A stretch of 43,267 nt of DNA from a virus. Within the stretch, counting starts at the first letter, position 1. The number at the start of each line of letters is the position of its first letter. The translations under genes and the position numbers were made by a program. Positions 3,143 to 33,925 of the stretch are shown here, one piece after another. Under the pieces are notes generated by a model. That model was not told the origin of the DNA. It saw nothing but the letters and a program-made list of their open reading frames with translations, and ran no database searches. The stretch covers positions 1-43,267 of the IMG/VR virus record IMGVR_UViG_3300008261_000081, one strand, 5' to 3'.

Positions 3143-3154
3143 GATAAACCTCTA

Positions 3155-5290: not shown

Positions 5291-5297
5291 ATTTGTT

Positions 5298-5302
5298 TCT
5301 CC
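5298..5302 (-). promoter_or_regulatory. Shine-Dalgarno (GGAGA) fixing the start at 5290
   Basis: The minus strand reads GGAGA at 5302-5298, followed after 7-8 nt by the ATG at 5290. The upstream in-frame TTG at 5347 has no such site and overlaps the stop of the preceding gene. This decides the start of the 311-aa protein and removes a spurious 19-residue extension. Confidence 0.8.
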
Positions 5303-5343
5303 GTTGCTAGAATTAAGTAGTTTCCTATATGAAAACAACAATT

Positions 5344-10800: not shown

Positions 10801-11337
10801 TACTTCTGAAGTATGCTGAGTATATGAACTCATGTCGCTTGATACATCGATTCCAATATTTAATTTTTTAAATAAAATATTCCTATGAATTGCATCATAG
10901 ATATCCTCATTTGGAAAAGCAAATTTAAGTATTTCATATGGATAAGAATCTTCTTTAAGTTTAAAGCCATTATTTAAAATAGTATTTATAGCTATTTTCG
11001 AACTTGATAGAGCGGCTGTTACATTTTCGTCAATACTGGCTATAATAGATATTTTTACATATTTAGTAAACTTATTCTCAAACCATTTACTTATCGGTTC
11101 TCCAGAGATGATCTCTTTTAAAGATAAATCTAAGGTAACATTTACCTTTTCATTTTGTTCTAGTTTCTGAATTACATTAATGTTTTCAAATTCTATATAA
11201 TTTTCTCTTGGATGTTGTATGTGAGGATCAGATTCCCGATGCTGTGAAATGACTTTATTTTCTAAAGTGATCTTGTCAATTAAAACATCTGGTAATATAG
11301 ATTCTAATAATCCTGCTTGATCTTTAGGAAATTTCAT
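7873..11337 (-). CDS. Predicted large virion structural protein (1154 aa), unrecognised
   Basis: I cannot assign a family. The start is set at the ATG at 11337. Its GGAG lies 8 nt upstream and it overlaps the previous stop as ATGA. A GTG three codons earlier coincides with that Shine-Dalgarno and is unlikely. The protein is Asn/Ser/Ile-rich and soluble. The N-terminal 200 residues look beta-rich, and the centre has helical stretches around residues 500-700. A C-terminal segment near residues 1020-1060 (INKIEVLVGF, then YPLWTLLTSDIW) looks like a conserved domain ending. There is no membrane segment beyond a short hydrophobic patch near residue 640 and no catalytic motif. Its place between the 309-aa and 832-aa structural genes implies a baseplate or tail-adornment role. 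Confidence 0.6.
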   Translation of the reverse strand: MKFPKDQAGLLESILPDVLIDKITLENKVISQHRESDPHIQHPRENYIEFENINVIQKLEQNEKVNVTLDLSLKEIISGEPISKWFENKFTKYVKISIIASIDENVTAALSSSKIAINTILNNGFKLKEDSYPYEILKFAFPNEDIYDAIHRNILFKKLNIGIDVSSDMSSYTQHTSEVNANGDTIHNINLKTNFNFNKNINHLALFALSSIDIEALANDYNLSYIPQDSFIKLQNGKISSDIVINNGKTYNKAFVFKKTSGEVWQGPVHENGINSWFTGSSPTSKSEPLVLLEVNNDKIQDFRKFDELQKIQIDLSALENRVFTDINSKFQFLKNSSSLTKPRNYYFSDIFITKSPNREAKMTFAFDHLKMLRENSVYEKLISNASREEISEMLLHSKIKEIKILRRRVKNNLDYNRIGNQINSNSVFNKDEPPVLVVLSSDDPQGMLLSRDTSYGLIKESDYNLDIGNNNLRFFKVVDKSISSITDGVYQYGVEITIQDGIQDYVLSLLKKMRESRNLLNRYLAKASIPDTSKYIYELQDPHVDVARWEKGSHEQNKKGNFNISSGRFTSHFIKEQYEEYAADITAAPWFSAVVEFFKVFDIFTGFFKNNRDGKNIVEQIISFADPYSGTIAGISSIISMMDKFITRVAIVVGDELRTYWEDDILSKDLRKNTIKNIIVNHWFNDEQYDSDFISRGYDYFSDYRYDGLLAISPEQLLDRVREETMRFWEDVNFPSQLLDIEFDNSYLTTGMGYLSPVFVNIDNNLNINLFLQNNINNDYYSILEEHLTTPNSRLLNNFEQQLLSFSNEEVNNISDFLSSLNVSLGEFHNPPVELSSDGENVTLRTSFQNNTICNNSATDIQQKIDLHVRKEEPEFIAAREDIGRRSPSDIISRANASRIVNILTSQVRPIATQQRQLNMNSSLQRSTINIPNQRRNTLTVSSLNLRNQNNIILNLKTDPSSNGFTRRHNISSTNDLSLLLNSFPNQLKSLFIGSIMSSYVKEDFFEKTREPSLDPLTSSKFNFYFNLINKIEVLVGFRDNNIKYPLWTLLTSDIWSRNLNKELLCRMIPYENEELGISRPENLNLPIYNDYFTIKPNKLIKTKTNSNTIKDDMRIVILNKVSAISDKNFNMAITSNIIGDKKPTSFSYSKNR

Positions 11338-12263
11338 CTTTTGCACTCCGCTTCACTATCCATGATATTAGTGATGATATCGTTATTTTGCTGCGCTGAA
11401 GGAGATATAGTACCTTTGAATTTAGATTCTTTACCCATTGTAAGGAATATATTTTCTTTTTCTTCTATCTCTATTTGAGTTAACAATTCCTCATCGATAT
11501 AATCATCGACGACAATATTGAACCAATAATTTACATAACTAGGATCCTCAGATGAATTCCTTTCTTCTATCGAAGTACCATTAAAATCAACTAAAAATCC
11601 GTCTTTAATTTTTTTATTAGTTTTTTTAAAAGCCAATTTTATAAGCTTCTCTTCATATGAAGTTGAATTGTCTATTATTAAATTTCCTTGAGAATCAACC
11701 TTCTCGACTAAGAATACTTCAATATCAAAATTTTCATTTTGAAAGATGGAATTCATTTCTCGGATATCAAATAATCCAAATTCCTCTTTCGTAACTAGTG
11801 ATAAATTAGCGTCATAATGAAGCTTGTAAGTAATTGGATCAATATTTATTTGAGGTATACTTTCTTCTGCTGATGAAATTATTTCAAGATTTGAAATATC
11901 TTTTATTTTTCCTTTTAATAACTGTATCTTCCAAGCTGGCATTTTATTAATACCTATCTCAGAATTACCAAGAGGCATTAATAACTTATGATTAGATTTT
12001 ACTGGGTTTACCGATCCTCTCCTTACATCTTTTTCTATACTAGAAAACACATATTGCGTTTTGAGTCGTGGAGTTTCTTCTTCGATTCTATTCTGTATTT
12101 CAACAGAATTTTCAACTATATTTGAGTATTGAGCATCGTATAGGATATCATCATCAAAAAAAGCATAAAGCTTTGGACTAAACTTACCAGTTGACAAGAG
12201 ATGCTTTCCATATTGAGTTAACTCAATATCAATCACTTCCTCTTTGGAATCAAAAAAAGACAT
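11334..12263 (-). CDS. Predicted tail/baseplate structural protein (309 aa) with shared N-terminal module
   Basis: This 309-aa protein opens MSFFDSKEEVIDIELTQYG and then has LLSTGKF ... YAFFDDDILYD. The spacing of the LT-x2-G, LSxG-x-F and F-x-DD-x-I-x-Y elements matches the N-terminus of the 311-aa protein at 4355-5290. I therefore read a common N-terminal module followed by divergent bodies. The body is acidic and contains beta-strand-like stretches, with no signal peptide or membrane segment. The ATG at 12263 is preceded by GGAGGTGATTA, a strong Shine-Dalgarno that also spans the stop of the 3888-aa gene 2 bp away. Its stop overlaps the next start (ATGA). This tight coupling suggests fixed stoichiometry with its neighbours. 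A structural role is inferred. Confidence 0.65.
   Translation of the reverse strand: MSFFDSKEEVIDIELTQYGKHLLSTGKFSPKLYAFFDDDILYDAQYSNIVENSVEIQNRIEEETPRLKTQYVFSSIEKDVRRGSVNPVKSNHKLLMPLGNSEIGINKMPAWKIQLLKGKIKDISNLEIISSAEESIPQINIDPITYKLHYDANLSLVTKEEFGLFDIREMNSIFQNENFDIEVFLVEKVDSQGNLIIDNSTSYEEKLIKLAFKKTNKKIKDGFLVDFNGTSIEERNSSEDPSYVNYWFNIVVDDYIDEELLTQIEIEEKENIFLTMGKESKFKGTISPSAQQNNDIITNIMDSEAECKR
11346..11349 (-). promoter_or_regulatory. Shine-Dalgarno (GGAG) fixing the start at 11337
   Basis: GGAG on the minus strand at 11349-11346 lies 8 nt before the ATG at 11337. It directly abuts and overlaps the alternative in-frame GTG at 11346, so the ATG is the plausible start. That start overlaps the TGA of the preceding gene by 4 nt (ATGA). 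Confidence 0.75.
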
Positions 12264-12265
12264 CG

Positions 12266-15200
12266 TTAATCACCTCCAGACTCAAGTAAGTTTACTTCAT
12301 TAATTATGCTAGAATTTGTATTTTTGATTACAACTCCTCCTTGGATTTTGCAAAGTTCAATCAAGCTACAATAATCATATGGCCAGTTATAGGTAAAATC
12401 ATTTATTTGATTATTTGAATTTATAACATTTGCCATATCCCAATAATTGGTATTAGCTTTTTTCTTGACTCTAAATACGAGCCATCTCATGTCATTAGGT
12501 AATTGACGTCCTTCAAAAAAATTATCTTTGCTTAATTCGTGTTCAATTGCTTGAGTTTCTAAAGATGAACCAATTGAAATTTTAGGCATTAATCCTTGCC
12601 AAATATTTGATAAGTCATCCTTGTCTAAATTGTGAGTAAATTCAAATATATACATTACAAATGGTTTAACTTTATTGTTTAAAACAGCATTTCTATTTAG
12701 AAAATTAAATTGTGGTGGTAAATTATATTTCTTCATTTTCTTTATCATATCAGTTACAGTATTATCTGGTAATTCTGAGTCGATCGGTCTTCTCATTGAA
12801 GAATCCCATAATGTAGAAGATATTGAGAAAAAGTATCTATCCATTATTTTTATTGTTTTAGCTCTTCTACGATCACGTGTCCCAGTAGGCTTATCAGTAA
12901 ATGGTATTAGAATTAATGCTTCAGATATCTCTTTACTATCAGCTATTTCCCCAATTCTTGATCTTTGTGATGTAAATCCGCATACATCCATAAGAGAGCC
13001 TATCTTATCATCGCATGCATTCAAAATTCTACGAGAATAGAATTCTCTATCTCTCTGTATTTCAACTTCTTTATCATCACTTAACAAATCTATATTCTTT
13101 TGAGAATCGATATAATAAATTCCAAGTTTTCCTGTTGGGTTCATTACAGGATCAGTCTTTGATTCCAAAGTTATTTTTGGATTTATTGTAGCGATAAGTC
13201 TCTCTAATTCACGTCTTCCTCTTCTATTATTCAAGAAGCTGCGATCATGATCATATATTATTTCTACTACTACTTTAGCACTTGTTGATAATCTGAAAAA
13301 CTCTCCATTGTCTTGCTCTTCGGACAATCTTTCACGAGATATACCTCTAATTCTCTCCCCATCAAATGAAGATACCCAGACTATTCTGGCGTCCCATGGG
13401 AAGCTTCTATCTCTCAATCTGCTCAGCTTTATATGATAGACAATAGCATTTGCCAAGTCTGATGAAGTTGGTACATTTGATGTGGCTGGTAAGACTAAAT
13501 CATCAATATTTGTAGCATATCTATCGGCTTGTAAATAAGCTTCAATATCATACTCTCCAGACATCCCTACTGAAAGATTTTCTAATGTTGCTCTTGGACT
13601 GGTACCGATTGTTCTAATGCATGCGTCGGCCGAGTAAGGTATAAATTCTGATGAGTTATCGGCTGACAATATTTCAGCTATAGATGAATTCATGTACTTA
13701 TCTTGCCATGAATAGAAATTCACTCTACCACCCACAGACTCAACGGCATTAGAAGGTTGTCCAATCTTTATATAATCAATTCTTCCAGTTGGATCTTTGA
13801 GAGTAATAATATTTCTATTAGCCTCTCTAGTATCACGAGGAATACCAATTAAAACTGAATAATCAATTGGTTGCTCTGAAGAACAGACTGGCGATTCTTC
13901 AATTGCCAAGAATATCCCCTGTTCTGAAGTTGGAATCTCGCCATAACCTCCCCACATGCCAGTACCACATTGGTTATCTTTATTAAGATAACTTAAGTTT
14001 TGTTCAGTTTTAAAATTAAGTACTGGACTTTCGAATTTTGGCGATATTGTCCAAACAGAATCCTCGCCTTCTTGAGCTATACCATTAAAATTTATTGACG
14101 ATTGAATTGGCATTCTCGACTGGTACGCTGGTGTATCCTGCCATTTATATGGCACTTCACCGATGGCGGCCAGATAAAGTTGAGAAGCAGTTAAAGATTG
14201 TCCTGAAGTTCTAGAAGAGAAAAGCTCCTCCATTTCTTCATTGATATAATCAATTTCTAAATTAAGAAGTAATTCACCAATTGTTGGCTGCCCAGTTCTT
14301 GGAGCTTTGAATTTTAATCGTGCCTTTGCACGACCATAGAAATAAGGTGGAACATAAGCAGCTTGAGAAGGATCAGCTACAGAGAGATGGTTTAAATCTC
14401 GTTCGGCATCTTCAGGCAAGTATCTCATAGAAGGACCAAAATAACGTCCATGAGTTGTTATAGGAAGACCATTATTGTCAACACCAATGACGATATCTTT
14501 ACCGTTATGCGGACTCATGATCATTTCGAAGTTATTTGTTTTATAGAGATGTACATCAAGATAGTATGTCCAGCCTTCTTCTACATGCTTCCACTGATTT
14601 TGTGGAGCTGATTTAAAGTTAGTTAAGCTATTATTTTTTAAGAAGAAGTTTGGTATTTCTGCTAAAAAGTTATGCATAGCCATTTCATATAATGGATTTT
14701 GCTGCCCAGTCCATTCAAAATATGGATACACTTCGTTTTCTTTTATACTTCTTGAATTATTCTTGTAGTTTTCTTGATAATAAGAGGGAGCTAACAAAAA
14801 TACTTTTGAATCTTCTTGCTCTATTCTATTTGGCAAATAATCCCTTAAAGATACCAAAGATTCGAAAGGTAACCTAAATGTTGGTAATTGATTGATTATA
14901 GCGCCTTCGGAATCAAATATTCTATTGACTAAATTCTCTTCAAAAGAAAAATTGTATGAGCTTGATATTCTACTATCAGTAAATGTATTTTCAATATATT
15001 GCAATATATTATTGACTGTCTGCGATAAAGATTGAACCGATAATCTGGCGAGGGATTCATTTCTCAGTAGGGAAGAGATAAAAGTTGATTCATTAAATCG
15101 ACTATAATTCCCACTCATATCTGCTATTTGAGTTCCATAAGTACGAAGTTCTTCAGCGAATTCATTGGCACGGCTAACCATCAGCTCTCTTGATAATTCT

Positions 15201-18200
15201 TCCACTTGTCTTGAAGAAGTTACAGCATTAAGAGATACTTGCCTATAAACATCATCAGTTACGATTTTATTTAAAATATTTTGAGCTAATGTATTTTCAA
15301 AACCAGATACAAATTCTTCTATTGGAGTTACATTCTTTACCATATTTTCAACAAAATCATAAATTTTATCTTTTAATTCATTTCCTGTTCTGCCAGAATA
15401 TGCAGCCCAGTCAACAGCAATACCAGACTTAATAGTGTTAAAAAGAATGCCCGGTGCAAAAAATGGTTGTAGAGCAGCTTGTTCTGTTCTAGCTCTTGCA
15501 TATGCTTGATTATCATCCTCTCCGGTAACATAAGGAATAATGCTATCATAAAATAAAGAGCCCAATTGCATAGCACGTTGAGATGGATAGAAACCATTAT
15601 ATGGCAGAAGCTTCTTTATGGCATCAACTTCAAGTCGTAAGACGTGGATACCAAAGTCTCTATGGTCATCCATTATCTTGGGTAGATAGTGGATTGTATC
15701 TGTGTGAGAATAGCACTTGAAGAATTCCTCTTTCCATAAGAAAGTATTACATATATTTGTTTCACTATTTTCTGTAACGCCAAGTCTCCACCACCCTACC
15801 AATTCAGAACAAGCAGTATTTTTGGCTAGTTGAATAACTTGTTCTCCACCTGCTTCTGAGATTACAGTCTCACCTTCATTCAATACATTAAATGGGCCAT
15901 ATCCCAGAGATAGTGGTGGTAATAATAAATAATCATTTAAATTAGGAATAAAAGTATTTGTTGGTAATTCAATACCACTTCTTAAAGTAGAGTTTAAATA
16001 TTTTCCAATATCTGCTATCCCAACTATGCTCTCAAAATTAATATACTGCTCTGTTGGTTCAGTATCATCTTCATTTAAGATAGTGATAGGAACTCTATTA
16101 AAATCAAAGAATATATCATAGTTTAATTGAACAAGCTTGCAAACTTTCATCTCGTCTCGCCATTCACTATAGATCTCATTAGCATCTTCACATTGAGACT
16201 TGAAGATTTTATTTGCTAAATTATTGAACAATCTTTTTGTTTTAGAATAATAGGCATTAGATTTATGATCAAAAAACCAACGGTAATCTTCCGGAGTGTT
16301 ATGCTTTTTATTTCTTGCATTACTTAAACTAAGTTCACTTAGGCCGGGATTTCCTCTATATAGAAATAGGTCTGTGGCTTTGCCGGAAAAATAACTATCG
16401 CCCGCCTTAGCAAAACTAATATGAGAAATAGTCTTTGGAAGATTATCTTTGAAAAGAAGCGTTCCATCGTTGATGAAAACATCAAGTGAATCTTCAGCTA
16501 ATCCAGCTATCTCTCTCATCCTTATCGTATTTGAGGCCTGAGAAGGAATCCATTTCCCGTCAATAAATAAAATCACTCTATGTCTATTTTCTGATGGTTT
16601 ATTTGATTTTCCACCACCAACATAATAAAGACATATATTTTTCCATTTATTCTTTATTTCACTTGCTTTAATAGCAAATATTAATTTATTCCCATAAGTG
16701 TCTTCCCATATAAGATCGCCATAATTACTATTTCCCTCTTGGAGATAAAAATAAGAAATCAATTTGCTTTTTGATGTCTGTTCACTTAAGAAGCGACTGC
16801 TGTTGACAACATTTCTAATATTTTTGATCGTCTTGTCGATACTAGATGTAAGCTGTTCAATCTCTCTAGAGATAGAAGTTCTCCTTTGCTCAAAAATTTG
16901 AGCAATAGTATCATTTGAAATCAAAGTATTATTTACTTTATTTAGATCATTTACTTTATTATCTAATTGGTTTTGTAGATTTGATAAGTCAAGTTTCTCT
17001 TTTTGAAGATCTATTATCTCGCCATTTAAAGATATATAATTATTATTTTCAATTTGAGCAAAAGAGTCAGAAGTAAATTCAAATATACCATTCTTGTTGT
17101 TTTGAGTATCTTGCAATAATACCCAAGATGATAGCATGAAAGAGTTATTCCACCTATCAATAAGCAAATCAGATTCCTTCGGTGGTGACGACCAATTCCA
17201 ATTAAATGTATTTGCTGTACCTATCTTTAATCCATTTAGTATAGTGTTATCAGATAGTTCAGTGACAAGTTCCGTTAAATCAAGTGATAAACTAATTTTA
17301 TTTTCTGACTCCAATTTAACAACTGGATATGGTTCTTTTGATTTCCAATTGTTAGCCAGTTCAGAGTCGATAGGCAACGGTTGCTCGTTGATGAACATAT
17401 CATTTACATTAGATATGTATCTAATATCATTAGCTAATAATGTCTCATATTCGCCATTAAATAATTCAGACCATCCAGATGCATAATTTTTTTGGCTTCT
17501 ATATGTTGAGCTGCTGCTAGTTGCACGAGATATGTTAACTCTGGATAAAGAACCTGAAAAATCATCTCTCTCAAAAGCACCTTTCATTTCAAGGATATTT
17601 CTATTATCAACATAAAAATCAGAAGAATTCTTATTGATATAAAAATCGAGATGAGTTGATATGTTGAATTCTGGAGTTATTGAATAATTCTGACCTATTA
17701 ATCTAATATCTTTTGAATACTGATCATAGTCATCGTGCCAAGGCGAATTTTGAGATATTTCAGCGGCCTTCCAAAGCCAAGCTTTTTCTGGTGCTTTTAA
17801 ACTTCTTGAATTATAAATAAATTGTAGCCTTGCTCTGGGGGCGATCCAAGAGTTGCTATCCTCTGCATCGAATACGTTAATATCATTTGATTCATTTGTT
17901 ATAAAATTATACGTATAGCCGTTATATTGAGGATCACCAGCCCACGTCAGATCTCCTCTCATATCAATATTCTCTTTATTTCTTGGCTTATATTCTAATG
18001 CCCACACTGAACTTCTTCTAACTTGATAGCCTAAAGAATTTAATCCTGTATGATTATCCAAATCATTATTCCAAGAAGTTCTCTCTCTCTTATCATCAGA
18101 AGCCCAGAACGTTCTTATTTCAGAAGCTCTTGCGTCATATCCTTCATAGCCTTCTTTTTCCTGATAGAATCTTCTACTTCTAGTCTTATTCAAGCCAGCA

Positions 18201-21200
18201 TTTCTATGCTTAGGAAAAATATTTTCCTTATATGAGGTCTCAAACATTCTTAAGCGGAAGATTCCCGCTGTATCATCAGGATATACTTCTTTATATCTTT
18301 CTGATATAAAGTCATACATTTGTCTTTTGATCGTCTTAAGTCCCAAATTCTTTTCCAAATAAGGATTAGCAAAATTCTCTATATTATTAGAATATGTTGT
18401 AGCAATATTATTGAATCTGAAATTTCTTGGCATTTCAGGGTCAAAAGAGACTCCTGTTCTAATAGGAGAATTCCATGAAACTACTGGTTCAACATAATTT
18501 GTTACTGTTTGAGATCTCCTCTCTCTAAAGAGAGTGAGACTGTCATTGTCATCTCTATATGAGATGACCTTTGGAACATCAAGATTTGAAATAATATTTT
18601 CTCTTCTCATCCTAGAGACAATTTTCTTTTCGTTATTCCTTATTTGCTTCCAAGTTGGCACTTGGTAAGGGCCATCACGATGAAGCAACATATCATTTAA
18701 AGTCAAATTATTATTTTCAAGTAACTTGAAAGTATTGTCATCATCTATAGGTAAGCCAGTAACATTTTTACCAACAAAATGTTCATAACATGAGTTATAA
18801 TTTTCTTGAACTAAATCATATGTTGAAGGATGATTCTCTCCTTCAAACTTATAATAATTATTTAAAAATGGTATGCCATCATCAATTATGATTTGTTCTC
18901 CATCTTTCTTGATGACAAGTTTAGAATATGTTGGAAGCGTTGGATCTAACTCTATTGTTGGGTAATATGATGCAATGTTTGGATACCTACTGACATACCC
19001 CCATGGACATATATTACGGATAATTAAATCATTTCCTACCTGCTCAACATAAGTCTTTTGTGTTGAAGAATTTATCCAAGAATACTGATAATCACTTCTA
19101 GGAAGCTGATGTGTTACGTAAGCATTATCTCTAGATGCTTTACATTCATTTTCTTCATCAATAATTTCTGGTCTATATGCTGTATTTCTATGATCTTTAT
19201 GGAAATTTGGTCTACACCTTAAATTTTCTTCTGTAGTACAATCAAGAAGAGCAACTCCCCTTCTATAGCTAGCATATCCCCATTTCTTTGTATGATATGT
19301 TAAAAGGTCTTTTAATATAAGTCTAACATCAAGATTTCTATAATTTAATCCATTATATACAGAAAACTCTTCTGCTTCAACATCTAACATTCCACGAGAT
19401 AAAGTATCTGGTGATCCCGGAGCAGAAAATCTCTGAACAAAAATATGTTCACTTCTTTCCCTCGAAGGAAGTTTAAAATCAAAAAGACCCAAAATTGATT
19501 CTGAAGAAGAGGTTGCTCCTTCTTGGATATTGTTTCCTTCCTTTCCTATCAACCATCTATTATTATTAGTTCTTCCAGAAGTTTGCACTACCTGATAATC
19601 AAACTTATAATTTCCATAATTTTGCTTTATATTTCTTATATTTACAGGTCTTTTTGTCTTTTCGTCACGATAATATTTTGCCTTAGGCTTATCATCATCG
19701 ACTGGCGAATAAGTACCATTTTCAAATTTCCAAGCCTCTGGTCTTTCTGATTGCTGATCAAAAGTTATATGTCGACTTTGTAAACCACCAACGTGTGTTT
19801 CGGTAAAAACACCTTGTAGTGGTATAACTTTATCATCGCCATATGTATCTGAATGGTTGCTATTCCAATATTTGCTTTCAGTATCAAGCTCTTTATTTAA
19901 CTCAAAAAGCGAAAGCATGCTTCCATTTAAACCCGTCTGCTCAGAAGCAATATTGAGTCTTGAATGTAAAAATGGAAATTTAACCTCTTGGTTATCTTTG
20001 CAATTTGAATTTGCAATATTACTTGCTTCTACGAAAGAAACTGAATTATTATCAGCTAATTCTGCTCTAACATAATCTATTTTTTTGCTGACCCTTGAAT
20101 TAATGCCAGAATGAATGTTGTTCTGGAAGTCAACATTAAATTTGTATGGAGACGATAAGCTTCTTATTGCAAAAGTCTGGCCTTCATATGTTCTTCTATC
20201 GCCCGCTACTTCATATGAAAGATTTCTCTTTGTATGATTTCCAAAATTTGTAGTAGTTATTGATTCTAGAATTTTTTGCTTTGAATCATCAACCTCTACT
20301 GTTCCAGATGTCAATTCAGAACTATCTCTCTCTGCTCTTTTTTTCCACCAAAGACAATTTTCATCCTGCTGTGAGGTTGCAGATCCATATTTCCAATTAT
20401 AAGTAGACTCATTTATACCTAAAATTGTTCCCTCTGGTGGTCTTTGATTTACTTCTAGTGTTGGAAACTTATTCCAATATTTATTTCTCTCCAAGATATG
20501 AGACTCAATCATGGTTCTCATATCTTCTGAGAAATTAGCAGAAGCAGGGATAAGCTGTTTTATCATCTCAGTGATTGAAGAATCAATCCACTTATAAAAT
20601 CTAATATATCTCTCCACTCTAGGTGATTCAATATATCTCTGAAAGAATATTTGTCTCAACTTATTGAGATTTTTATATTCCATCCTATATCTATTAACAG
20701 GCTCTCCAAGTAAATTATTAAACGATGAAATACCAGCAAATACCTGCATTATTTCTTCTGAAATATTTTGATACATACTTTTTTCAATAGCCCAAAAATA
20801 GTTGATTGGTCTAATATTTTTAGTAAAAAGTTCATCATCTTGATTCAAGATCTTGATTGTATCAGAAGAACTGATAATTTCAGGTTGGTTTTGTTTTGCT
20901 GCAAATAAATAATTTTTGTCTATGGCAAGTTCTTCAGGATAATAGAAGTCTCCTTTACCTGTATGCTGTGTTTTTACTATTTTACTAAGCCAGCTATATC
21001 TTGCATCTTCAGATGATTCAATGATACTTCCTCCGGAAACATCATCAACATAGAAAAAAGAATCAGATAGGATATTTTCTGCGCCGTCAATTCCATCAGA
21101 AGGACTAGCTTTACCTACTGTAGCAAAATCCCAATACAGACAAAGAGTTTCTATTTGTGGAACTCTTTTATTAATTGAAGTTTGATCAAAAAATGCTGGC

Positions 21201-23932
21201 TTATACGGATCCATCACTCCGTAGTTATCAGGATCTTGTGAATGATATCTAATCGTTTCATTGTCTAGATAATCTTGCCAATACCTAACCTCTCCTATTT
21301 TCACATCAGAGAGACTAACTCTTGTACCATTAAAATCTTTGTATTCAGCTCCTAAGAAAATTCTCTTATTAGCATTTAGAGCTTCTTTTGCAGCTGTTTC
21401 TGTCAGCTCATAAGATAAAACAAACTCATTCTCAACTGAATCTAATAGTGTTGAAATTCCATAAAACTCTAAATAATATTTAACATTTTCAGTAGAGTAC
21501 TCAGTTAAATCTGGATTGTTATCAATTCTTATTCTGACAGCAAAATTCCATTTAATGTCTTCGTATACATCATAGAAAAATTGAGTCTCCAATAGACCAT
21601 TCTTATAACCATAATTATTTAAGTCTGGTTCAACTCCCATTCCTCTAATGTCTAGTCTGAATTTGGCGTTTTTTCCGAATTCGGAGTCTCTTATGACAAC
21701 AACTCTGAATCCAAGCTTAGAACTGTCTGTCCATGATAAATCATTGTTATCTTCCTTAGCTTCGTGCATACCGAAAATGCAGCTTGGAGATTCATCTGAG
21801 AAGCCAAAACTTTGTGAAAAATACTTTGGATGATCAATTTGTAACTTTCTTGGAAAGATTACAGCTGCTTCAAATGTAAATGGAATATAATCAAGTTGAT
21901 TATCAATACCTCCAGAAATATAAGAAGAACTATGCTCATTATCTGGCTGCTTTTGTTGATAAACTGTAGAATCAAATCTGTCTGTATCATTAAAATCTAA
22001 GAAATTTTTCTTGACAGATGTTGAACGATAACGATCTTCTAACTTATACTTAACATCATTTCCATATAAATTGATTTTAATTAAATTATCACCAATTCCA
22101 AAACATCTTAAAATGTTTCTAAAAGATTTTTCAGTACCTTTAGACTTATATATCGAAACAATATTATTATATATATTGTGATATATCATGTTCTTGACGT
22201 TATATATCTTTTCTTCGAACAAGCTCTCTTCATCTCTATTTAATAGAGCTTCAAATACCGAAGAGTCAATAAATATCTCAGGCGAAACCAATCCCATTGA
22301 CTCAAGTAACTTCTTTGCAAATGGTAAAGGCTTCTCGCCATCTTCAATATAATTAACGTCTCTTAATCTTGGTAGTGACTCTATTTGGAGGTGTAATGTA
22401 TCAAAATAACTTGACACTATCTGAGTTAAATTGAGAATATTATTATCTCCATACTGTTCATCTACAGAGGTTATCCATTCAGGTATAGAACTATATATTG
22501 CAGCATTATTCTGCATATCATGTGAATTACCTAATAATTTTTTGTCAGAAATATATCCAGAAACTAATGGATTTTCACGATAAAGAATCGGATCTTTAAA
22601 TTCTTTATTTTTTATTTTCTTTTCATTAATGGCTGAGCCAGTGCTACGTACAGAAACAGTATAATTGATGATGGTACCATTTGATATTCTACCAGAATAA
22701 TCAAGAACTTGCTTATCCAAGGAATTGATCTTTTGAGTATCAACTATTCCTTCGTTAAACTTAAAATATACTCCAAGTTCAATATTAGAATCATCTGTGT
22801 TTGTCCCACCATGTACCTGAGAGATCCAAAACCTTCCAATATTTTCTGATGTTCTGGCGGATTTCCAAAATCTAAACTCATCAAATGAACCTTTGATTGC
22901 GCCAAAACCATAAAGATTATTTTGATTTGTACTTATTTTATGTTGTAAAGCGCCAATAGTGGCACTTACGTGATTAGTATTTCTGATAAAAGAAGTAACT
23001 GATGTTCCTTCTATTTTTTCCTGAATAAGTTTGCCATTTAAATAAAGCTTGATTGAAAGATTATTTCCTTTATTTTTTACAGATATTGCATAATGATTCC
23101 AATTTCTTATATTAAATGTTGATGGCAGCTTATCTCTGTCTCCAATCGGCAATAAATTAATACCATAAGTTCCGCCAACATCAGATTCATATGATGTAGT
23201 GTAAGTAACCTCTATCAAAGGTAAAGAAGAAGTTTTATCTTCTGGGAGTTGAATTAGGAATCTTGCATAATCATCGGTTCCATATTCATGATTATTCCAT
23301 AAGTCAAATAGTATTGACTTTCCATCAATTAACTCTCTATCTTCATCTAGCTTAAACCAAAATTCTACTGTGTTACCTTCAACACCACTAGTATATAAGT
23401 TTGTTTCTCTTTTCTGTTGCGCATTCAGCAGATTAGACTTTCCTAAGAATTCAGGAAATTGTCTTTTTAATTCGCCGGTTGGGTTGTTTGGCGTAGGGTT
23501 TGGACCACCTCTTACAAGAACAAATTGTGGATTATTTAGATATCTAAATCCATCAAGAATACTGCTCTGAATATAATTCTTATTTAATGAAATATATCCT
23601 GTTGTTCTAGGATACTCATTTTCAAAAATATAATTATCTATATAAGTATTATTATTCTGCCAAGATGTCTTTTCGAACAATGAACCATCATATGGATATG
23701 AATTAATTATTTTTTCGATTGAATCAAGATAATATTTTTCAGCTGAACCATATCTAGCAAAAGTCTTTGGATCATTAAAATTTATGATCGTCTTGGGGAT
23801 AAAACGTAAAATATCCTCATTTCTCTCTTGCAAATGTTCAAAAGACTCACCGTCTCTCTTGACAACTTCTTCAAATTTTTCAATAGTTAATATCTGATTT
23901 GACTTTTTACCAAATAAGTCCTTGATACTCAT
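12266..23932 (-). CDS. Giant multi-LamG virion protein (3888 aa)
   Basis: This is the largest gene in the window. Three concanavalin A/LamG-like modules can be seen. Module 1 (residues about 183-376) runs from TVEFWFKLDE to SFDEFRFWKSARTSENI, then YFKFNEG and LDYSGRISNG. Module 2 (about 680-897) runs from TFEAAVIFP to VKIGEVRYWQDYLDNETI. Module 3 (about 2262-2544) starts SFMLSSWVLL and ends KATDLFLYRG. It is interrupted by about 80 coiled-coil-like residues (about 2299-2377). A helical, aromatic-rich segment near 1040-1160 includes ERYIRFYKWIDSS and ESHILERNKY. No protease, hydrolase or membrane segment is apparent. LamG folds in phage proteins usually bind glycans or mediate assembly. It follows the gp6 and DNRLRE genes, so a baseplate-periphery or side-fibre role is likely. 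It might take the place of gp7 or gp10, but no similarity to those is visible. The ATG at 23932 has GGAG upstream. Confidence 0.75.
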   Translation of the reverse strand: MSIKDLFGKKSNQILTIEKFEEVVKRDGESFEHLQERNEDILRFIPKTIINFNDPKTFARYGSAEKYYLDSIEKIINSYPYDGSLFEKTSWQNNNTYIDNYIFENEYPRTTGYISLNKNYIQSSILDGFRYLNNPQFVLVRGGPNPTPNNPTGELKRQFPEFLGKSNLLNAQQKRETNLYTSGVEGNTVEFWFKLDEDRELIDGKSILFDLWNNHEYGTDDYARFLIQLPEDKTSSLPLIEVTYTTSYESDVGGTYGINLLPIGDRDKLPSTFNIRNWNHYAISVKNKGNNLSIKLYLNGKLIQEKIEGTSVTSFIRNTNHVSATIGALQHKISTNQNNLYGFGAIKGSFDEFRFWKSARTSENIGRFWISQVHGGTNTDDSNIELGVYFKFNEGIVDTQKINSLDKQVLDYSGRISNGTIINYTVSVRSTGSAINEKKIKNKEFKDPILYRENPLVSGYISDKKLLGNSHDMQNNAAIYSSIPEWITSVDEQYGDNNILNLTQIVSSYFDTLHLQIESLPRLRDVNYIEDGEKPLPFAKKLLESMGLVSPEIFIDSSVFEALLNRDEESLFEEKIYNVKNMIYHNIYNNIVSIYKSKGTEKSFRNILRCFGIGDNLIKINLYGNDVKYKLEDRYRSTSVKKNFLDFNDTDRFDSTVYQQKQPDNEHSSSYISGGIDNQLDYIPFTFEAAVIFPRKLQIDHPKYFSQSFGFSDESPSCIFGMHEAKEDNNDLSWTDSSKLGFRVVVIRDSEFGKNAKFRLDIRGMGVEPDLNNYGYKNGLLETQFFYDVYEDIKWNFAVRIRIDNNPDLTEYSTENVKYYLEFYGISTLLDSVENEFVLSYELTETAAKEALNANKRIFLGAEYKDFNGTRVSLSDVKIGEVRYWQDYLDNETIRYHSQDPDNYGVMDPYKPAFFDQTSINKRVPQIETLCLYWDFATVGKASPSDGIDGAENILSDSFFYVDDVSGGSIIESSEDARYSWLSKIVKTQHTGKGDFYYPEELAIDKNYLFAAKQNQPEIISSSDTIKILNQDDELFTKNIRPINYFWAIEKSMYQNISEEIMQVFAGISSFNNLLGEPVNRYRMEYKNLNKLRQIFFQRYIESPRVERYIRFYKWIDSSITEMIKQLIPASANFSEDMRTMIESHILERNKYWNKFPTLEVNQRPPEGTILGINESTYNWKYGSATSQQDENCLWWKKRAERDSSELTSGTVEVDDSKQKILESITTTNFGNHTKRNLSYEVAGDRRTYEGQTFAIRSLSSPYKFNVDFQNNIHSGINSRVSKKIDYVRAELADNNSVSFVEASNIANSNCKDNQEVKFPFLHSRLNIASEQTGLNGSMLSLFELNKELDTESKYWNSNHSDTYGDDKVIPLQGVFTETHVGGLQSRHITFDQQSERPEAWKFENGTYSPVDDDKPKAKYYRDEKTKRPVNIRNIKQNYGNYKFDYQVVQTSGRTNNNRWLIGKEGNNIQEGATSSSESILGLFDFKLPSRERSEHIFVQRFSAPGSPDTLSRGMLDVEAEEFSVYNGLNYRNLDVRLILKDLLTYHTKKWGYASYRRGVALLDCTTEENLRCRPNFHKDHRNTAYRPEIIDEENECKASRDNAYVTHQLPRSDYQYSWINSSTQKTYVEQVGNDLIIRNICPWGYVSRYPNIASYYPTIELDPTLPTYSKLVIKKDGEQIIIDDGIPFLNNYYKFEGENHPSTYDLVQENYNSCYEHFVGKNVTGLPIDDDNTFKLLENNNLTLNDMLLHRDGPYQVPTWKQIRNNEKKIVSRMRRENIISNLDVPKVISYRDDNDSLTLFRERRSQTVTNYVEPVVSWNSPIRTGVSFDPEMPRNFRFNNIATTYSNNIENFANPYLEKNLGLKTIKRQMYDFISERYKEVYPDDTAGIFRLRMFETSYKENIFPKHRNAGLNKTRSRRFYQEKEGYEGYDARASEIRTFWASDDKRERTSWNNDLDNHTGLNSLGYQVRRSSVWALEYKPRNKENIDMRGDLTWAGDPQYNGYTYNFITNESNDINVFDAEDSNSWIAPRARLQFIYNSRSLKAPEKAWLWKAAEISQNSPWHDDYDQYSKDIRLIGQNYSITPEFNISTHLDFYINKNSSDFYVDNRNILEMKGAFERDDFSGSLSRVNISRATSSSSTYRSQKNYASGWSELFNGEYETLLANDIRYISNVNDMFINEQPLPIDSELANNWKSKEPYPVVKLESENKISLSLDLTELVTELSDNTILNGLKIGTANTFNWNWSSPPKESDLLIDRWNNSFMLSSWVLLQDTQNNKNGIFEFTSDSFAQIENNNYISLNGEIIDLQKEKLDLSNLQNQLDNKVNDLNKVNNTLISNDTIAQIFEQRRTSISREIEQLTSSIDKTIKNIRNVVNSSRFLSEQTSKSKLISYFYLQEGNSNYGDLIWEDTYGNKLIFAIKASEIKNKWKNICLYYVGGGKSNKPSENRHRVILFIDGKWIPSQASNTIRMREIAGLAEDSLDVFINDGTLLFKDNLPKTISHISFAKAGDSYFSGKATDLFLYRGNPGLSELSLSNARNKKHNTPEDYRWFFDHKSNAYYSKTKRLFNNLANKIFKSQCEDANEIYSEWRDEMKVCKLVQLNYDIFFDFNRVPITILNEDDTEPTEQYINFESIVGIADIGKYLNSTLRSGIELPTNTFIPNLNDYLLLPPLSLGYGPFNVLNEGETVISEAGGEQVIQLAKNTACSELVGWWRLGVTENSETNICNTFLWKEEFFKCYSHTDTIHYLPKIMDDHRDFGIHVLRLEVDAIKKLLPYNGFYPSQRAMQLGSLFYDSIIPYVTGEDDNQAYARARTEQAALQPFFAPGILFNTIKSGIAVDWAAYSGRTGNELKDKIYDFVENMVKNVTPIEEFVSGFENTLAQNILNKIVTDDVYRQVSLNAVTSSRQVEELSRELMVSRANEFAEELRTYGTQIADMSGNYSRFNESTFISSLLRNESLARLSVQSLSQTVNNILQYIENTFTDSRISSSYNFSFEENLVNRIFDSEGAIINQLPTFRLPFESLVSLRDYLPNRIEQEDSKVFLLAPSYYQENYKNNSRSIKENEVYPYFEWTGQQNPLYEMAMHNFLAEIPNFFLKNNSLTNFKSAPQNQWKHVEEGWTYYLDVHLYKTNNFEMIMSPHNGKDIVIGVDNNGLPITTHGRYFGPSMRYLPEDAERDLNHLSVADPSQAAYVPPYFYGRAKARLKFKAPRTGQPTIGELLLNLEIDYINEEMEELFSSRTSGQSLTASQLYLAAIGEVPYKWQDTPAYQSRMPIQSSINFNGIAQEGEDSVWTISPKFESPVLNFKTEQNLSYLNKDNQCGTGMWGGYGEIPTSEQGIFLAIEESPVCSSEQPIDYSVLIGIPRDTREANRNIITLKDPTGRIDYIKIGQPSNAVESVGGRVNFYSWQDKYMNSSIAEILSADNSSEFIPYSADACIRTIGTSPRATLENLSVGMSGEYDIEAYLQADRYATNIDDLVLPATSNVPTSSDLANAIVYHIKLSRLRDRSFPWDARIVWVSSFDGERIRGISRERLSEEQDNGEFFRLSTSAKVVVEIIYDHDRSFLNNRRGRRELERLIATINPKITLESKTDPVMNPTGKLGIYYIDSQKNIDLLSDDKEVEIQRDREFYSRRILNACDDKIGSLMDVCGFTSQRSRIGEIADSKEISEALILIPFTDKPTGTRDRRRAKTIKIMDRYFFSISSTLWDSSMRRPIDSELPDNTVTDMIKKMKKYNLPPQFNFLNRNAVLNNKVKPFVMYIFEFTHNLDKDDLSNIWQGLMPKISIGSSLETQAIEHELSKDNFFEGRQLPNDMRWLVFRVKKKANTNYWDMANVINSNNQINDFTYNWPYDYCSLIELCKIQGGVVIKNTNSSIINEVNLLESGGD
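16800..17035 (-). other. Coiled-coil insertion inside third LamG-like domain of the 3888-aa protein
   Basis: Residues about 2299-2377 of the giant protein are rich in heptad-like Leu/Ile/Val spacing with charged and Gln/Asn residues (EIIDLQKEKLDLSNLQNQL ... SREIEQLTSSIDKTIKNI). A helical hairpin is suggested by the central break near NDTIAQ. The flanking strands belong to one LamG-like unit, so the coil appears to project from a loop of the sandwich. Confidence 0.5.
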
Positions 23933-23934
23933 TT

Positions 23935-25338
23935 TTACTCCACCCTAAACTTGAAAGTTTCTGGTTGTTGTACAAGGTTGCCTTCAATTTCATATTGAAG
24001 CTCTATTCTATAAGAATATTCTGGCTCTAGAAGAGTCATGTCAAAATCGAAATAATTACCTGTCTTATCGTAAGACATTAATGTATGTACTCCAAAATCT
24101 ACAGCAACTTGTTCATCAACTACTCTGACAATTTTGAAATATGCCTTTTCTATAATAGAATTCTCAATATTTCTGCTTGCCTTGGTATAAATAGTCGGAG
24201 TCCAATCTTTTAATCTTGAATATAATCTAAATCTTGCTGTTTCATTTTTAGAATAAACAGTTTTCATATTTACAATATTTGTTATATACGTCGGCAGTAC
24301 ATCACTTCTGATTGTCCTTGATAAAACTTTTAGCTCCTCTGAGTAAAATATATCTGGCGGTGTCTTGTTGTTTTGCCAGTCTACATACACGAGTTCCTCT
24401 TCTGTAGTCAAAGATACAATAGCCTTATAGACACCAGTCTTTATTTTTTCCATCTGAAGGTGGTCAGGTTGTATTTCTGCTTCTTTATTTAAATCTGAAT
24501 AAAATTTAATTGTCAAATCAGTATCTGAGCCTGAATCGATAGTTACTGTCGGTATATCAGTACTATTCTTAAGATATAAAATATTATCATTATTTGATGA
24601 CAGTAAACTATTTTTATAAAAATTTCCTCTATTATCTGCTTCAGAAGAATTCCATAAAGCATATAATGCTGGTCTTTGAAAAAAATACTCTGAACTCCGA
24701 GCAAAAAACTTCTTTGTATAAAATGAAGTTTGAAGAGTTCCATCTTCATTAGCATTTGGGAATTTTATCATTAATCCATAATTTGGCGTTCCCTCGATCC
24801 ATGACTCCACAATATCAGTTATATCTACTTCCAAATCTTCATAACCTTCAGAAAAAGTGACTGTTTTAGTTACTTCGGAATCATAATCTCCGCCTTCACT
24901 ATCCCATAGAGAGCCCACATCAGCCGATTTCCAATCAGACCCAAGTCCTCCTCGTGATGCTCCTCGGTCTGAATAATCTTCCATGTCTAGACCTATGCCC
25001 TCTGACCATACTTTAGTCACTGGGTGGATTTTTAATTCATAATCAAAAGGCAATGTTAAACCATGCGGAGCATTACACAGCTTCATTACAAATGAGACAT
25101 TACCAGTTGAAGGTATTTTACCATTTTGTCTAAGATTTGCTATTTCAGTAATGGGGAATGATATTAATATTCTAGAGCTTTCTAGCTCATCGCCTGATAT
25201 ACCACGACCATATATTGTGTACACTTCAAGTATATCAGAAGCTCCCATATTAGAATCGATACTTCTTGTTTGTAAATTACTTTTTAGAGCATTAGTAATT
25301 GTAGTATCTTTTTCAGCTATAAACTTTTTAATTGCCAT
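23935..25338 (-). CDS. DNRLRE-like domain virion protein (467 aa)
   Basis: The N-terminal about 230 residues match the pattern of DNRLRE-type beta-sandwich domains. The protein opens with a 'DTTITNALKSNLQT' strand. It then has 'SRILISFPITEI' in place of the usual R-x-L-x-x-F-D. A 'KVWSEG' strand follows, and then the hallmark 'LEVDITDIVESWIEG' with 'NYGLMIKF'. Such domains occur in bacterial surface and phage structural proteins and often adjoin glycan-binding parts. The C-terminal half is beta-rich and unassigned. The ATG at 25338 shares its A with the TAA of the gp6-like gene (TAATG), so translation is coupled. The TAA at the other end lies 2 bp before the start of the giant LamG gene. The context suggests a baseplate-peripheral connector or adhesin, which is inference. 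Confidence 0.65.
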   Translation of the reverse strand: MAIKKFIAEKDTTITNALKSNLQTRSIDSNMGASDILEVYTIYGRGISGDELESSRILISFPITEIANLRQNGKIPSTGNVSFVMKLCNAPHGLTLPFDYELKIHPVTKVWSEGIGLDMEDYSDRGASRGGLGSDWKSADVGSLWDSEGGDYDSEVTKTVTFSEGYEDLEVDITDIVESWIEGTPNYGLMIKFPNANEDGTLQTSFYTKKFFARSSEYFFQRPALYALWNSSEADNRGNFYKNSLLSSNNDNILYLKNSTDIPTVTIDSGSDTDLTIKFYSDLNKEAEIQPDHLQMEKIKTGVYKAIVSLTTEEELVYVDWQNNKTPPDIFYSEELKVLSRTIRSDVLPTYITNIVNMKTVYSKNETARFRLYSRLKDWTPTIYTKASRNIENSIIEKAYFKIVRVVDEQVAVDFGVHTLMSYDKTGNYFDFDMTLLEPEYSYRIELQYEIEGNLVQQPETFKFRVE

Positions 25339-27146
25339 TACTTAATTACTCCATTAATATCATCATTTAAGAATCTTATTTCCCAAATACAATTCTTTGG
25401 TATATCAAGATATCTTCCATCAGGTGATAAATTTGCCTTTATATTATATCTTATATCTGAATATAGTCCACCTGCACGAAGACTTATATCGACGTTTATA
25501 ACATCAACTACCCCTTCTATATTTTTCAAGATACTATAGACATCTGTTATAAAAAATGGCTCTCCTATCTCAGGATGTTTAACAAAATTCTTTTTAAGGG
25601 CTTCTTTTGTTTTATCTAGAATTTCAAACTTCTCCATATCTTGACGCCCAAGTATTTGATAATTAATTGCTAAATTGATTATCCTAGCATCCAAAATATC
25701 AATTGTATCATTGACCATCTTATGCTGAGATAACCATGTCTTTACATTTTCTTTAATTGTATCATTAGTATAAGCTAGATTACCAGAAAGGCTTTCTGAT
25801 ACAACATACATATTTAAATTTCTCTTTAGAGAATCAGAATCTCTATATACTTTACATCTCTTTACAGCTCCAAATTTAGTTGGCATTGCATATGTAAAGG
25901 CTTCATAATCCTTTGCGGTAACAGCTCTATTTTGAGTTGAAAAGTTATTCAATATTCTCATCTTTAATTCTTGCCCAGAAGGATTTGTGACATCTCCAGT
26001 GATTGGAGATTCATTGGTACATTCAAGTGTAGACATAATAGATTGAACTTGATTTTGATCCAAAAGATTTAGGTTTTTAAATTCAAAAAAAGGAGTAACA
26101 ACATTGACAACAGAATTGGCGCTGGCGTTGACATTGCCAGTTGTGTTTACTCTATAAGTAATTTGTAATGTTGTATTAGAGGGAGCTATTCCAAATTCAT
26201 CCGATTCAACAAGCATATTTGGATCGAATGACGTATCTGAAATATAAGGAGAACCGTGCCTCTTCAAAATAACATTACTTGGATCTAGTACAGATTTATT
26301 AATGATATTATCATTATCGACTTCTAGATCGGAACTAGCTCCAAAAGTTAAATGAAGTTTATTTCTAGATCTCTCAGTCACAAACCTTCTAGCAACTTGA
26401 AATGGTTTAATTATCTCGCCAGCTTCGAATCTATCTTGATTTCTATTTGTAACCGATCTATAGATCGTATCTTGGGATAAGAAATCAACTTCGTAATATT
26501 CATGACCTTCACTATCAATTACAGAGATGATTTCACTTATATTTCCATTAGATAGAGTTACTTTTCTAAACTTCTTATATTCTGGTATATTAATAAATTC
26601 TTCATTAATCATTCCAGATATAATTCTACCCTGAGCTTTTACAGCCCATGCCGTAGGTACTGATGTTTCCTGACTTACACGAGCTACACGAATTTCGTTT
26701 AATGGATGGTCGAAATGGACATCTTCATCTAACATGAAGTTTGAACCATTAACAGTTGAAAGTATTGTTTTTCTTTTCAAGATAGGTAGATAGTTTATCT
26801 CTGGTGCTGTACCATCCATATTTGATGGACACATCAAATAAAAAGTACACATTCCATACGATGAATTTCTTGAATTAAATTTGTAGCCTAGTTGCTTACC
26901 AAGTTTAATAATATTTTCATATTCTTGCGCTGTCTCTAAAAAGCTTTCATTGGCTTGATAATCAAGATAAAATGATAATATATCACCTACGTAGGCTACA
27001 GTATCAAGCATTAAAGAACCAAAAGAAGCTTCACTGAAATCTCTAAACGTTTCAGGATAATATCTTTTAGCATAATCTACTAGCGATTCCTTGATCGAAT
27101 CAAATTCTCTACTAGTATATTTAATTGGAACTATTTTCTTTGGCAT
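25338..27146 (-). CDS. gp6: Baseplate wedge protein, T4 gp6-like (602 aa)
   Basis: This is a homologue of the T4 gp6 / baseplate J family, which forms the inner ring of the contractile-tail baseplate. The N-terminus has the typical start of the family (YTSREFDSIKESLVDYAK, then FSEASFGSLMLDTVAYVGD and LSFYLDYQANESFLETA). The C-terminal half has the J-like signature: 'RAVTAKDYEAFTYAMP', 'GAVKRCKVYRD', and a following 'VKTWLSQHKMVNDTI' helix leading to strands. T4 gp6 is 660 aa, so the length fits. The ATG at 27146 is preceded by GAGGAAA. The gene lies 13 bp after the gp25-like gene, the pairing expected in myoviruses. It would act in assembled virions on the baseplate. Confidence is high for a wedge protein, slightly less for strict gp6 orthology. 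Confidence 0.9.
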   Translation of the reverse strand: MPKKIVPIKYTSREFDSIKESLVDYAKRYYPETFRDFSEASFGSLMLDTVAYVGDILSFYLDYQANESFLETAQEYENIIKLGKQLGYKFNSRNSSYGMCTFYLMCPSNMDGTAPEINYLPILKRKTILSTVNGSNFMLDEDVHFDHPLNEIRVARVSQETSVPTAWAVKAQGRIISGMINEEFINIPEYKKFRKVTLSNGNISEIISVIDSEGHEYYEVDFLSQDTIYRSVTNRNQDRFEAGEIIKPFQVARRFVTERSRNKLHLTFGASSDLEVDNDNIINKSVLDPSNVILKRHGSPYISDTSFDPNMLVESDEFGIAPSNTTLQITYRVNTTGNVNASANSVVNVVTPFFEFKNLNLLDQNQVQSIMSTLECTNESPITGDVTNPSGQELKMRILNNFSTQNRAVTAKDYEAFTYAMPTKFGAVKRCKVYRDSDSLKRNLNMYVVSESLSGNLAYTNDTIKENVKTWLSQHKMVNDTIDILDARIINLAINYQILGRQDMEKFEILDKTKEALKKNFVKHPEIGEPFFITDVYSILKNIEGVVDVINVDISLRAGGLYSDIRYNIKANLSPDGRYLDIPKNCIWEIRFLNDDINGVIK

Positions 27147-27159
27147 TCATATTTCCTCA

Positions 27160-27585
27160 TCACATAGGTACAAGACCAGTGACATTATCAATGTTATCTA
27201 GATCAAAGTAAATTTTTAACTCTTGTTGCTCCTCAAGTGGAGAAATATAAAACGTTATGACAATGCTCAAATAATTATCAGGTAAATCGCTATTTGTTTC
27301 AGAATCATAGAAAGATATATCAATTATATTAATATATGGAAGATAATCAGCAACTTGTCTTCTTATTTTTGCTTGTATCTCGGATTTAGCATATTCTGTA
27401 TTCTGTTCAAAAAGAACTTTCTTGATACCAACACCAAATGATGGTTCCATCATTCTCTCACCCGGATTTGTTAAAATAAGCATCCTAAGGTTCTGCAAGA
27501 CAAGCTGCGTGAAAGTTATATTCATTTGATAGCCCAAACCAGTATCTATAAGAAGCGGCAGCCTTGGTGATATACTTCTAGTCAT
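27160..27585 (-). CDS. gp25: Baseplate wedge protein, gp25/W-like (141 aa)
   Basis: This short protein has the GPW/gp25 family signature. Residues 17-37 include LGYQMNITFTQLVLQNLRML, followed by the diagnostic 'TNPGERMMEPSFGVG' at 39-53, which contains the EPxFG motif. T4 gp25 is 132 aa, so the length fits. In contractile machines gp25 binds the sheath and organises the inner baseplate together with gp6 and gp53. The gene starts at an ATG with GAGG upstream, 10 bp after the 1699-aa gene, and directly precedes the gp6-like gene, as expected for a baseplate operon. Confidence 0.95.
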   Translation of the reverse strand: MTRSISPRLPLLIDTGLGYQMNITFTQLVLQNLRMLILTNPGERMMEPSFGVGIKKVLFEQNTEYAKSEIQAKIRRQVADYLPYINIIDISFYDSETNSDLPDNYLSIVITFYISPLEEQQELKIYFDLDNIDNVTGLVPM

Positions 27586-33655: not shown

Positions 33656-33925
33656 TTATTTGATATGATTAAATAGGTTAGGCGCTAATTGTTTAGCTAT
33701 TGTTGGAGTCCAAGGCACCAATGGTCTTCCATTCGAATGCGGAATATTATACTTCTCGCATAGCGGTATAACAGACCTCCACGCTCTTGTCATTTCTTGT
33801 GGCTCAAAAGCTATTATCTTTTCTCCATTGAAATCACTTTCATAATCTTTAAACTTTTTTGTCTTTAAAAGAGGATATTTTACTTCTAACAAAACGAGCA
33901 GACAATCTTGCTCCAAATTCTCCAT
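33656..33925 (-). CDS. Small ORF (up to 89 aa) or frameshifted C-terminal extension of the 1291-aa protein
   Basis: This frame overlaps the last 77 nt of the 1291-aa gene and continues 193 nt beyond it. Its apparent ATG at 33925 lacks a Shine-Dalgarno (upstream GATCAGTTCTTGA). The overlapping part looks like out-of-frame translation, whereas the part beyond the overlap reads like real protein (EMTRAWRSVIPLCEKYNIPH, then GRPLVPWTPTIAKQLAPN). An A6 tract at 33860-33855, just before the TAA of the long gene, would join the two frames if one A were absent or a +1 shift occurred. The fused product would read KDKKFKDYESDFNGEK at the join. An independent gene could start at an internal ATG near 33792 (MTRAWRS), but its Shine-Dalgarno is also poor. 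I favour an extension of the upstream protein. No function is assigned. Confidence 0.45.
   Translation of the reverse strand: MENLEQDCLLVLLEVKYPLLKTKKFKDYESDFNGEKIIAFEPQEMTRAWRSVIPLCEKYNIPHSNGRPLVPWTPTIAKQLAPNLFNHIK
33849..33860 (-). other. A6 homopolymer abutting the stop: candidate frameshift or sequencing-indel site
   Basis: On the minus strand the 1291-aa frame reads GAC AAA AAA GTT TAA. The overlapping frame reads ACA AAA AAG TTT AAA. Loss of one A, or a +1 slip here, removes the stop and adds 64 residues. The site is shown directly; whether slippage, an assembly error or a true stop applies is open. Confidence 0.4.

Follow-up and report, generated by a model that had tools for sequence, protein, structure and literature searches.

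According to passages of PMC6300606, TssF-TssG and gp6-gp7 have the same 2:1 trimeric architecture, in which a triangular core is combined with a three-helix bundle; the trimer recruits receptor-binding parts and contacts the spike and sheath. In T4, gp7 is a protein of 1032 aa. The lack of a recognizable gp7 in marine T4-like phages has been published: a passage of PMC7029224 describes its replacement by VrlC in cyano- and pelagimyophages, and a passage of PMC3037559 assigns gp7 to the non-cyanophage core. PMC10966104 was set aside as a gp7 source because the "gp7" of the passage concerned is a neck protein. Two cyanophages encode giant proteins at the gp7 position. In S-RIM50, the gene directly after gp25 and gp6 has a product of 6405 aa that is annotated as "baseplate wedge initiator gp7", and ACG-2014i has a 3494-aa protein there, annotated as a structural protein. 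Searching the literature for T4-like baseplate proteins that carry LamG, or for giant baseplate genes, returned two siphophage papers only.

Here we analyzed an 11.7-kb gene encoding 3888 aa in a 43,267-base virus record (IMGVR_UViG_3300008261_000081; the whole record is referred to as the window). The gene starts with ATG, occupies 27% of the window, and probably encodes a baseplate wedge protein of the gp7 type (P2 gpI/TssG-like) in a lineage of uncultured T4-like phages. The first-pass annotation had described a single gene of this extent behind gp6, with three LamG-like units. The ORF, gp6, gp25, and one LamG domain were confirmed, but not the count of three. The size, remarked on there as far above that of usual tail proteins, has a precedent in the S-RIM50 protein. 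The giant gene and its nearest neighbors are as follows:

27160..27585, minus strand, gp25-type wedge gene (phrog_261, E 8.8e-17; PF04965, 48.5 bits)
25338..27146, minus strand, gp6-type wedge gene (phrog_219, E 5.7e-23)
23935..25338, minus strand, DNRLRE-like gene, directly upstream (NF033679, 32.2 bits against a cut-off of 34)
12266..23932, minus strand, giant gene, 3888 aa, probable gp7-type wedge protein
11334..12263, minus strand, 309-aa gene, directly downstream

In transcription order, the giant gene is preceded by a 1291-aa peptidase M15 gene, a 309-aa gene, a 1699-aa gene, gp25, gp6, and the DNRLRE-like gene, and is followed by genes of 309, 1157, 832, 330, 395, and 419 aa. The spacing to each neighbor is 2 bases. 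The DNRLRE gene does lie directly in front, as annotated, but its family score falls slightly short of the cut-off. We compared the locus with 102 relatives containing the N part, drawn from two viral-contig scans (L003-L024, plus L028-L107 as the best 80 of at least 596); the distant L025-L027 were left outside this set. These loci are not independent events, since a single contig carries both L011 and L033 and some other rows are near-copies. The DNRLRE-like gene is immediately upstream in all 101 relatives that have upstream sequence, with gp6 found in 97/102 loci and gp25 in 95/102. Downstream, 69 relatives are complete at the C end; the 309-aa gene comes next in 66 of these, and the remaining three loci end within 350 bases.

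Among nine long relatives, seven contain gp23, and the same seven have a sheath match (over the cut-off in three). By sequence, the phages carrying these relatives are contractile and T4-like. Models for T4 gp7 (phrog_964), gp8 (PF09215), and gp9/gp10 (PF07880) matched none of eight records, namely the window and seven long relatives. As positive controls, phrog_964, PF07880, and PF09215 match T4 and S-RIM50. In ACG-2014i, only the gp8 model (PF09215) matches and phrog_964 misses, and in the phages immuto and Mel-JY01 the gp7, gp8, and gp9/10 models are all unmatched, so the absence of these proteins holds by sequence model only.

Several neighboring genes have features of their own. The 1699-aa gene (27596-32695), upstream of gp25, matches no Pfam family (threshold E 0.05) and has a weak PHROG match (E 0.055); similar-sized relatives occupy the same place. 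The 1291-aa gene (33849-37724) has its peptidase M15 domain at residues 39-130 and is possibly a hub or lysis protein. Near their N-termini, the 309-aa (11334-12263) and 330-aa (4355-5347) proteins resemble each other (38% over 45 columns, E 9e-4 from one pair), perhaps through a shared docking domain. The 395-aa (3155-4342) and 419-aa (1883-3142) proteins, 23% identical over 207 columns (E 1e-9 from one pair), look like paralogues.

Within the giant protein, a putative gp7-like core lies in two halves:

22013..22537, minus strand, gp7-like core, first half, residues 466-640
22097..22150, minus strand, core motif KSKGT..S.RN..RC.G, residues 595-612 (K598, G599, K602, R605, N606, and G612 invariant)
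20453..20815, minus strand, core, second (helical) half, residues 1040-1160

The motif residues are invariant in a 23-row N alignment that includes the window, as are P484, W486, and D511 among others, and E1143 and R1149 are nearly so. Three gp6-adjacent proteins, from Flavobacterium phage immuto, Microcystis phage Mel-JY01, and L025, are matched by profiles of residues 466-660 (hhalign 99.3%) and 1040-1165 (98.7%). We also compared the core, and these three intermediates, with gp7 itself. Against a 7-row profile of T4, cyanophage, and Desulfovibrio gp7, the core scored 89.9% (E 1.7e-6, an optimistic value from one pair), and the reversed control scored 0.4%. Scores against the separate sets were 0.5-1.2% for T4-type gp7 alone (24.7% with Desulfovibrio added), 9.2% for the cyanophage giants alone (26.8% with Desulfovibrio added), and 0.5% for P2 gpI. 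The intermediates themselves had no match among the gp7 profiles (0.4% and 2.7%). The whole N part aligned with T4 gp7 at 0.3% and at another place, with T4 gp6, gp8, and gp10 also unmatched by hhalign, and the helical half (1040-1165) matched neither T4 gp7 nor gpI. The Pfam Gp7 domains, present in T4 gp7, were not detected in the giant protein at E up to 1. Between the known groups, T4-type and cyanophage gp7 cores score 90.8% to each other, and the T4 gp7 model matches the S-RIM50 giant at the same core motif (E 8.2e-6). The core profile comprised 104 rows that represent 103 proteins, L030 being entered twice. Aeh1 and Thanatos gp7 are absent from it because the motif pattern missed them, and removal of near-copies reduced 15 cyanophage-type rows to two (ACG-2014i and S-RIM50).

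A model of residues 1-1190 built from 23 sequences had a mean pLDDT of 66 and a pTM of 0.44. The core was modeled poorly, with pLDDT below 50 at 547-633 and 1016-1190, so the gp7 fold is not confirmed. In a Foldseek search with this model (E < 0.001), LamG/pentraxin and lectin-like chains lead, and no gp7 chain is among the matches listed.

We nevertheless favor a gp7-type protein, for several reasons. The gene follows gp25 and gp6, as in P2 W-J-I, T4 6-7, and the cyanophages, and its upstream neighbor is kept in every relative where it can be seen. The core matches both gp6-adjacent intermediates and the combined gp7 profile, and its motif is also where the T4 gp7 model picks up the S-RIM50 giant. 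No T4-type gp7 gene was found in the window or the seven long relatives, and gp23 and sheath accompany the gene in most long relatives. Against this stand the one gene that separates gp6 from the giant gene, the weak scores with the T4-type, cyanophage, and P2 gpI sets alone, the missing Pfam Gp7, and the low pLDDT of the core. The first-pass annotation had taken the product for a virion protein and left its role open among gp7, gp10, and side fibers. The strict synteny and the gp7-like core argue for a place in the virion, at the baseplate, and for gp7 among the three roles, though homology to T4 gp7 is inferred.

The domains around the core were assigned as follows:

22601..23605, minus strand, LamG 1, residues 110-444 (PF13385 at 186-365, above cut-off)
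21038..22012, minus strand, probable LamG-like domain 2, inserted in the core, residues about 641-965 (predicted beta sandwich)
15773..17485, minus strand, insert I1, residues 2150-2720, annotated at first as a third LamG (unproven)

LamG 1 is certain by both profile and model. PF13385 is found in 18 of the 23 N-terminal rows (window included), and modeled residues 110-442 match the LamG/pentraxin-like domain of PAPP-A with Z 19.7 and an rmsd of 3.0 over 220 aligned residues. Domain 2 is probably LamG-like, given a beta sandwich predicted at about 635-965 and two tandem-LamG chains that align across both domains, though with an rmsd of 27; Pfam finds no LamG at 641-965. The two core landmarks that flank it lie 531 residues apart in the window protein, 440 in L025, 453 in Mel-JY01, and 169 in immuto. 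Given the short distance in immuto, domain 2 is best regarded as an insertion. For the third unit (about 2150-2660), there was no Pfam match and no hhalign match to LamG 1 or 2, which are likewise unlinked to each other (0.1-0.5% among LamG regions). Insert I1 is present along its full length only in L003 and L004, and partly in L028. The annotated helical segment was seen just as weak family matches at 2296-2392.

If the protein is of gp7 type, the two halves of its core (residues about 466-640 and 1040-1160) would link a pair of gp6 copies into a wedge, as is proposed for T4 gp7, P2 gpI, and TssG. With one gp7 in each wedge, a part fused to gp7 is present in six copies per virion, a stoichiometry that the giant protein would share. 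LamG 1, before the core, and LamG-like domain 2, inside it, would face outward, where they could bind cell-surface sugars or neighboring tail proteins. The core itself may recruit receptor-binding parts and touch the spike and sheath, as in gp6-gp7 and TssF-TssG.

Alternatively, the product could be a receptor-binding or side-fiber protein encoded beside gp6, in which the LamG domains do the work and the likeness to gp7 is a motif-level coincidence. LamG 1 is clearly a carbohydrate-binding-type fold, and a passage of PMC7029224 places concanavalin A-type proteins, thought to be receptor-binding, in cyanophage and pelagimyophage structural operons. However, the aligned relatives conserve both LamG 1 and the core, with the invariant residues mostly outside the LamG loops, and the neighbors are constant, unlike the variable host-recognition cluster described in the same source. 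No alternative gp7 candidate turned up in the window or the seven long relatives. We therefore regard a receptor-binding or side-fiber protein as unlikely and a gp7-type wedge protein as the better reading.

Behind the core, the chain continues with two modules, M and C:

19058..20377, minus strand, module M, first part, residues 1186-1625 (relatives' alignment, splits)
17933..19057, minus strand, module M, second part, residues 1626-2000 (relatives' alignment, splits)
12269..17932, minus strand, module C, residues 2001-3888, with inserts I1 and I2 (A2 alignment, 65 rows; L101 model)
15407..15460, minus strand, module C signature, residues 2825-2842 (conserved in the A2 alignment)
13013..13891, minus strand, insert I2, residues 3348-3640 (missing in most BLAST alignments; 89% nucleotide identity to L003)

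The A2 alignment took in 65 of 77 located C parts. Module C was modeled confidently on the natural 947-aa L101 protein (65 sequences; mean pLDDT 73, pTM 0.83). Compared with PDB structures, module C gave no clear match (Z 2.1-3.6, the best 3.6 over 100 residues); the 947-residue model was searched whole, so these weak matches do not prove a new fold. BFVD returned seven matches to module C at E < 0.001, none with a function. Pfam, PHROGs, and NCBIfam searches of the whole chain found nothing above cut-off other than LamG 1, and PHROGs gave no result for the relatives' split proteins. Searching PDB sequences with both profiles yielded nothing but one Rab-18 match (E 0.36), which was taken as chance. 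When GTDB genomes were scanned for module C, there were 17 matched stretches, from which five MAG loci were obtained. One, L279 (CP070664.1, a WOR-3 MAG), was set aside, with a module C piece and downstream phage genes joined to bacterial genes; this MAG "chromosome" is probably a misassembly.

The complete gene is a single chain of 2643-3874 aa in 52 of the 102 relatives and comes in two parts in 17; the remaining 33 are cut off at contig or locus ends. Conservation covers residues of about 1-1185, 1400-1975, 2054-2148, 2720-2850, 3017-3347, and 3641-3876; the two inserts occupy about 2150-2720 and 3348-3640. The natural splits fall at three places:

20261..20419, minus strand, breakpoint 1, residues about 1172-1224 (L019, L023, L037, L047, L071)
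19043..19066, minus strand, breakpoint 2, residues about 1623-1630 (at or near it in eight relatives, L014, L029, L061, L064, L087, L092, L093, L099; the first half terminates there in L086, L091, L107)
17933..18160, minus strand, breakpoint 3, residues about 1925-2000 (near it in L011/L033 on one contig, L040, L055, L066, L069, L101, L102)

The two halves are separated by -4 to 40 bases in all but L071, and a Shine-Dalgarno-like stretch was seen at 11 of the 18 split junctions inspected. In L071, 2.1 kb lie between the halves (13780-15914), with open frames of 150, 281, and 250 aa that by eye look like structural proteins. Of 90 clusters, 79 could be labeled as split or single, and a quick tree was made with one representative of each (58 single, 21 split); L013 was too short for it. 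On this tree, the state changes at least 12 times, nine of them forced by well-supported branches. The recurrence at three places indicates that the modules are separable, and repeated fusion and splitting at the same places suggests that they sit side by side at equal dose. In a gp7-type protein, modules M and C, being part of one chain with the core, would be present in equal dose and would probably make up the outer wedge, which module C and the LamG domains would dress.

A bolder proposal, which we consider rather doubtful, is that module C is an unseen fold kept across an uncultured T4-like lineage. Placed beside or on the gp7 core at one per wedge, it would take over the T4 outer wedge ring (gp8, gp10, perhaps gp11), and one chain would build most of the wedge. 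Of these ring parts, gp8 and gp9/gp10 went unfound by models in the window and seven long relatives.

The same splits could instead mark the cut sites of a precursor processed into separate virion proteins, as their recurrence at three places and the 12 state changes required by the tree (at least nine forced) might be read. This is improbable, as 52 of 69 complete relatives are single chains, and module C has its own fold in either case.

The ORF itself is a real, single translated chain with no assembly joint. A stop-free frame of this length has a chance of about 10^-144 at this base composition, and the protein is collinear with L003 (3874 aa) over residues 1-3870 at 65% identity. Compared with L003, codon position 3 is the most divergent in 12/12 segments, both inserts included, and position 2 the least divergent in 11/12; the exception is segment 3348-3640, where positions 1 and 2 tie. 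Given this bias in all segments, the entire ORF behaves as translated sequence. An assembly error fusing separate genes, raised in the first-pass annotation and suggested at most by the split forms, is already refuted by collinear relatives, with the modules on one complete chain in 52 of 102 rows (90 clusters at 95%), by L003, and by the codon-position bias along the whole ORF. Neither Rfam families nor tandem repeats were found. Residues 3001-3640 (13013-14932) show 82-89% nucleotide identity to L003, compared with 62-75% in other segments, and are likely a recombination tract.

At least 596 stretches of viral contigs encode a relative, yet PHROGs does not recognize the protein. Naming it would annotate the largest gene in many T4-like contigs. 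The natural fusions and splits also map baseplate parts that are likely adjacent at equal dose. As a possible new fold, module C offers a clean target.

Compared with known systems, the giant gene resembles T4 gp7, P2 gpI, and TssG in its place after gp25 and gp6, and in the combined profile its K-G-T/I motif core lines up with gp7 in the same order. Conversely, neither T4 gp7 nor P2 gpI alone matches it significantly, it matches neither phrog_964 nor the Pfam Gp7 domains of the strict T4 family, and it is nearly four times longer than T4 gp7, with LamG domains and modules M and C. The immuto gp109 (1265 aa), Mel-JY01 (1336 aa), and L025 (1717 aa) proteins match both core halves, and immuto and L025 also have the synteny with gp25, gp6, and the DNRLRE-like gene. 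All three are shorter, gp109 has no insert in the core, and for immuto and Mel-JY01 modules M and C are unmatched in phage records by tblastn. The best seven BFVD matches are uncharacterized viral proteins (A0A1B1IWQ4, A0A1B1IV21, A0A0F7L9Z0, and others, some labeled uncultured marine virus), with 25-36% identity in the N part, 17-28% in module C, and no function given. The S-RIM50 and ACG-2014i proteins are likewise giant, directly follow gp6, and contain the same core motif, but tblastn with the M and C parts of L101 (E up to 0.01) gave no match in them or in any other of the 50,697 phage records. With giant wedge proteins already annotated in cyanophages, the giant gene is most likely an unusual version of a known part, whose family, by sequence, has its own modules M and C beyond the gp7-like core.
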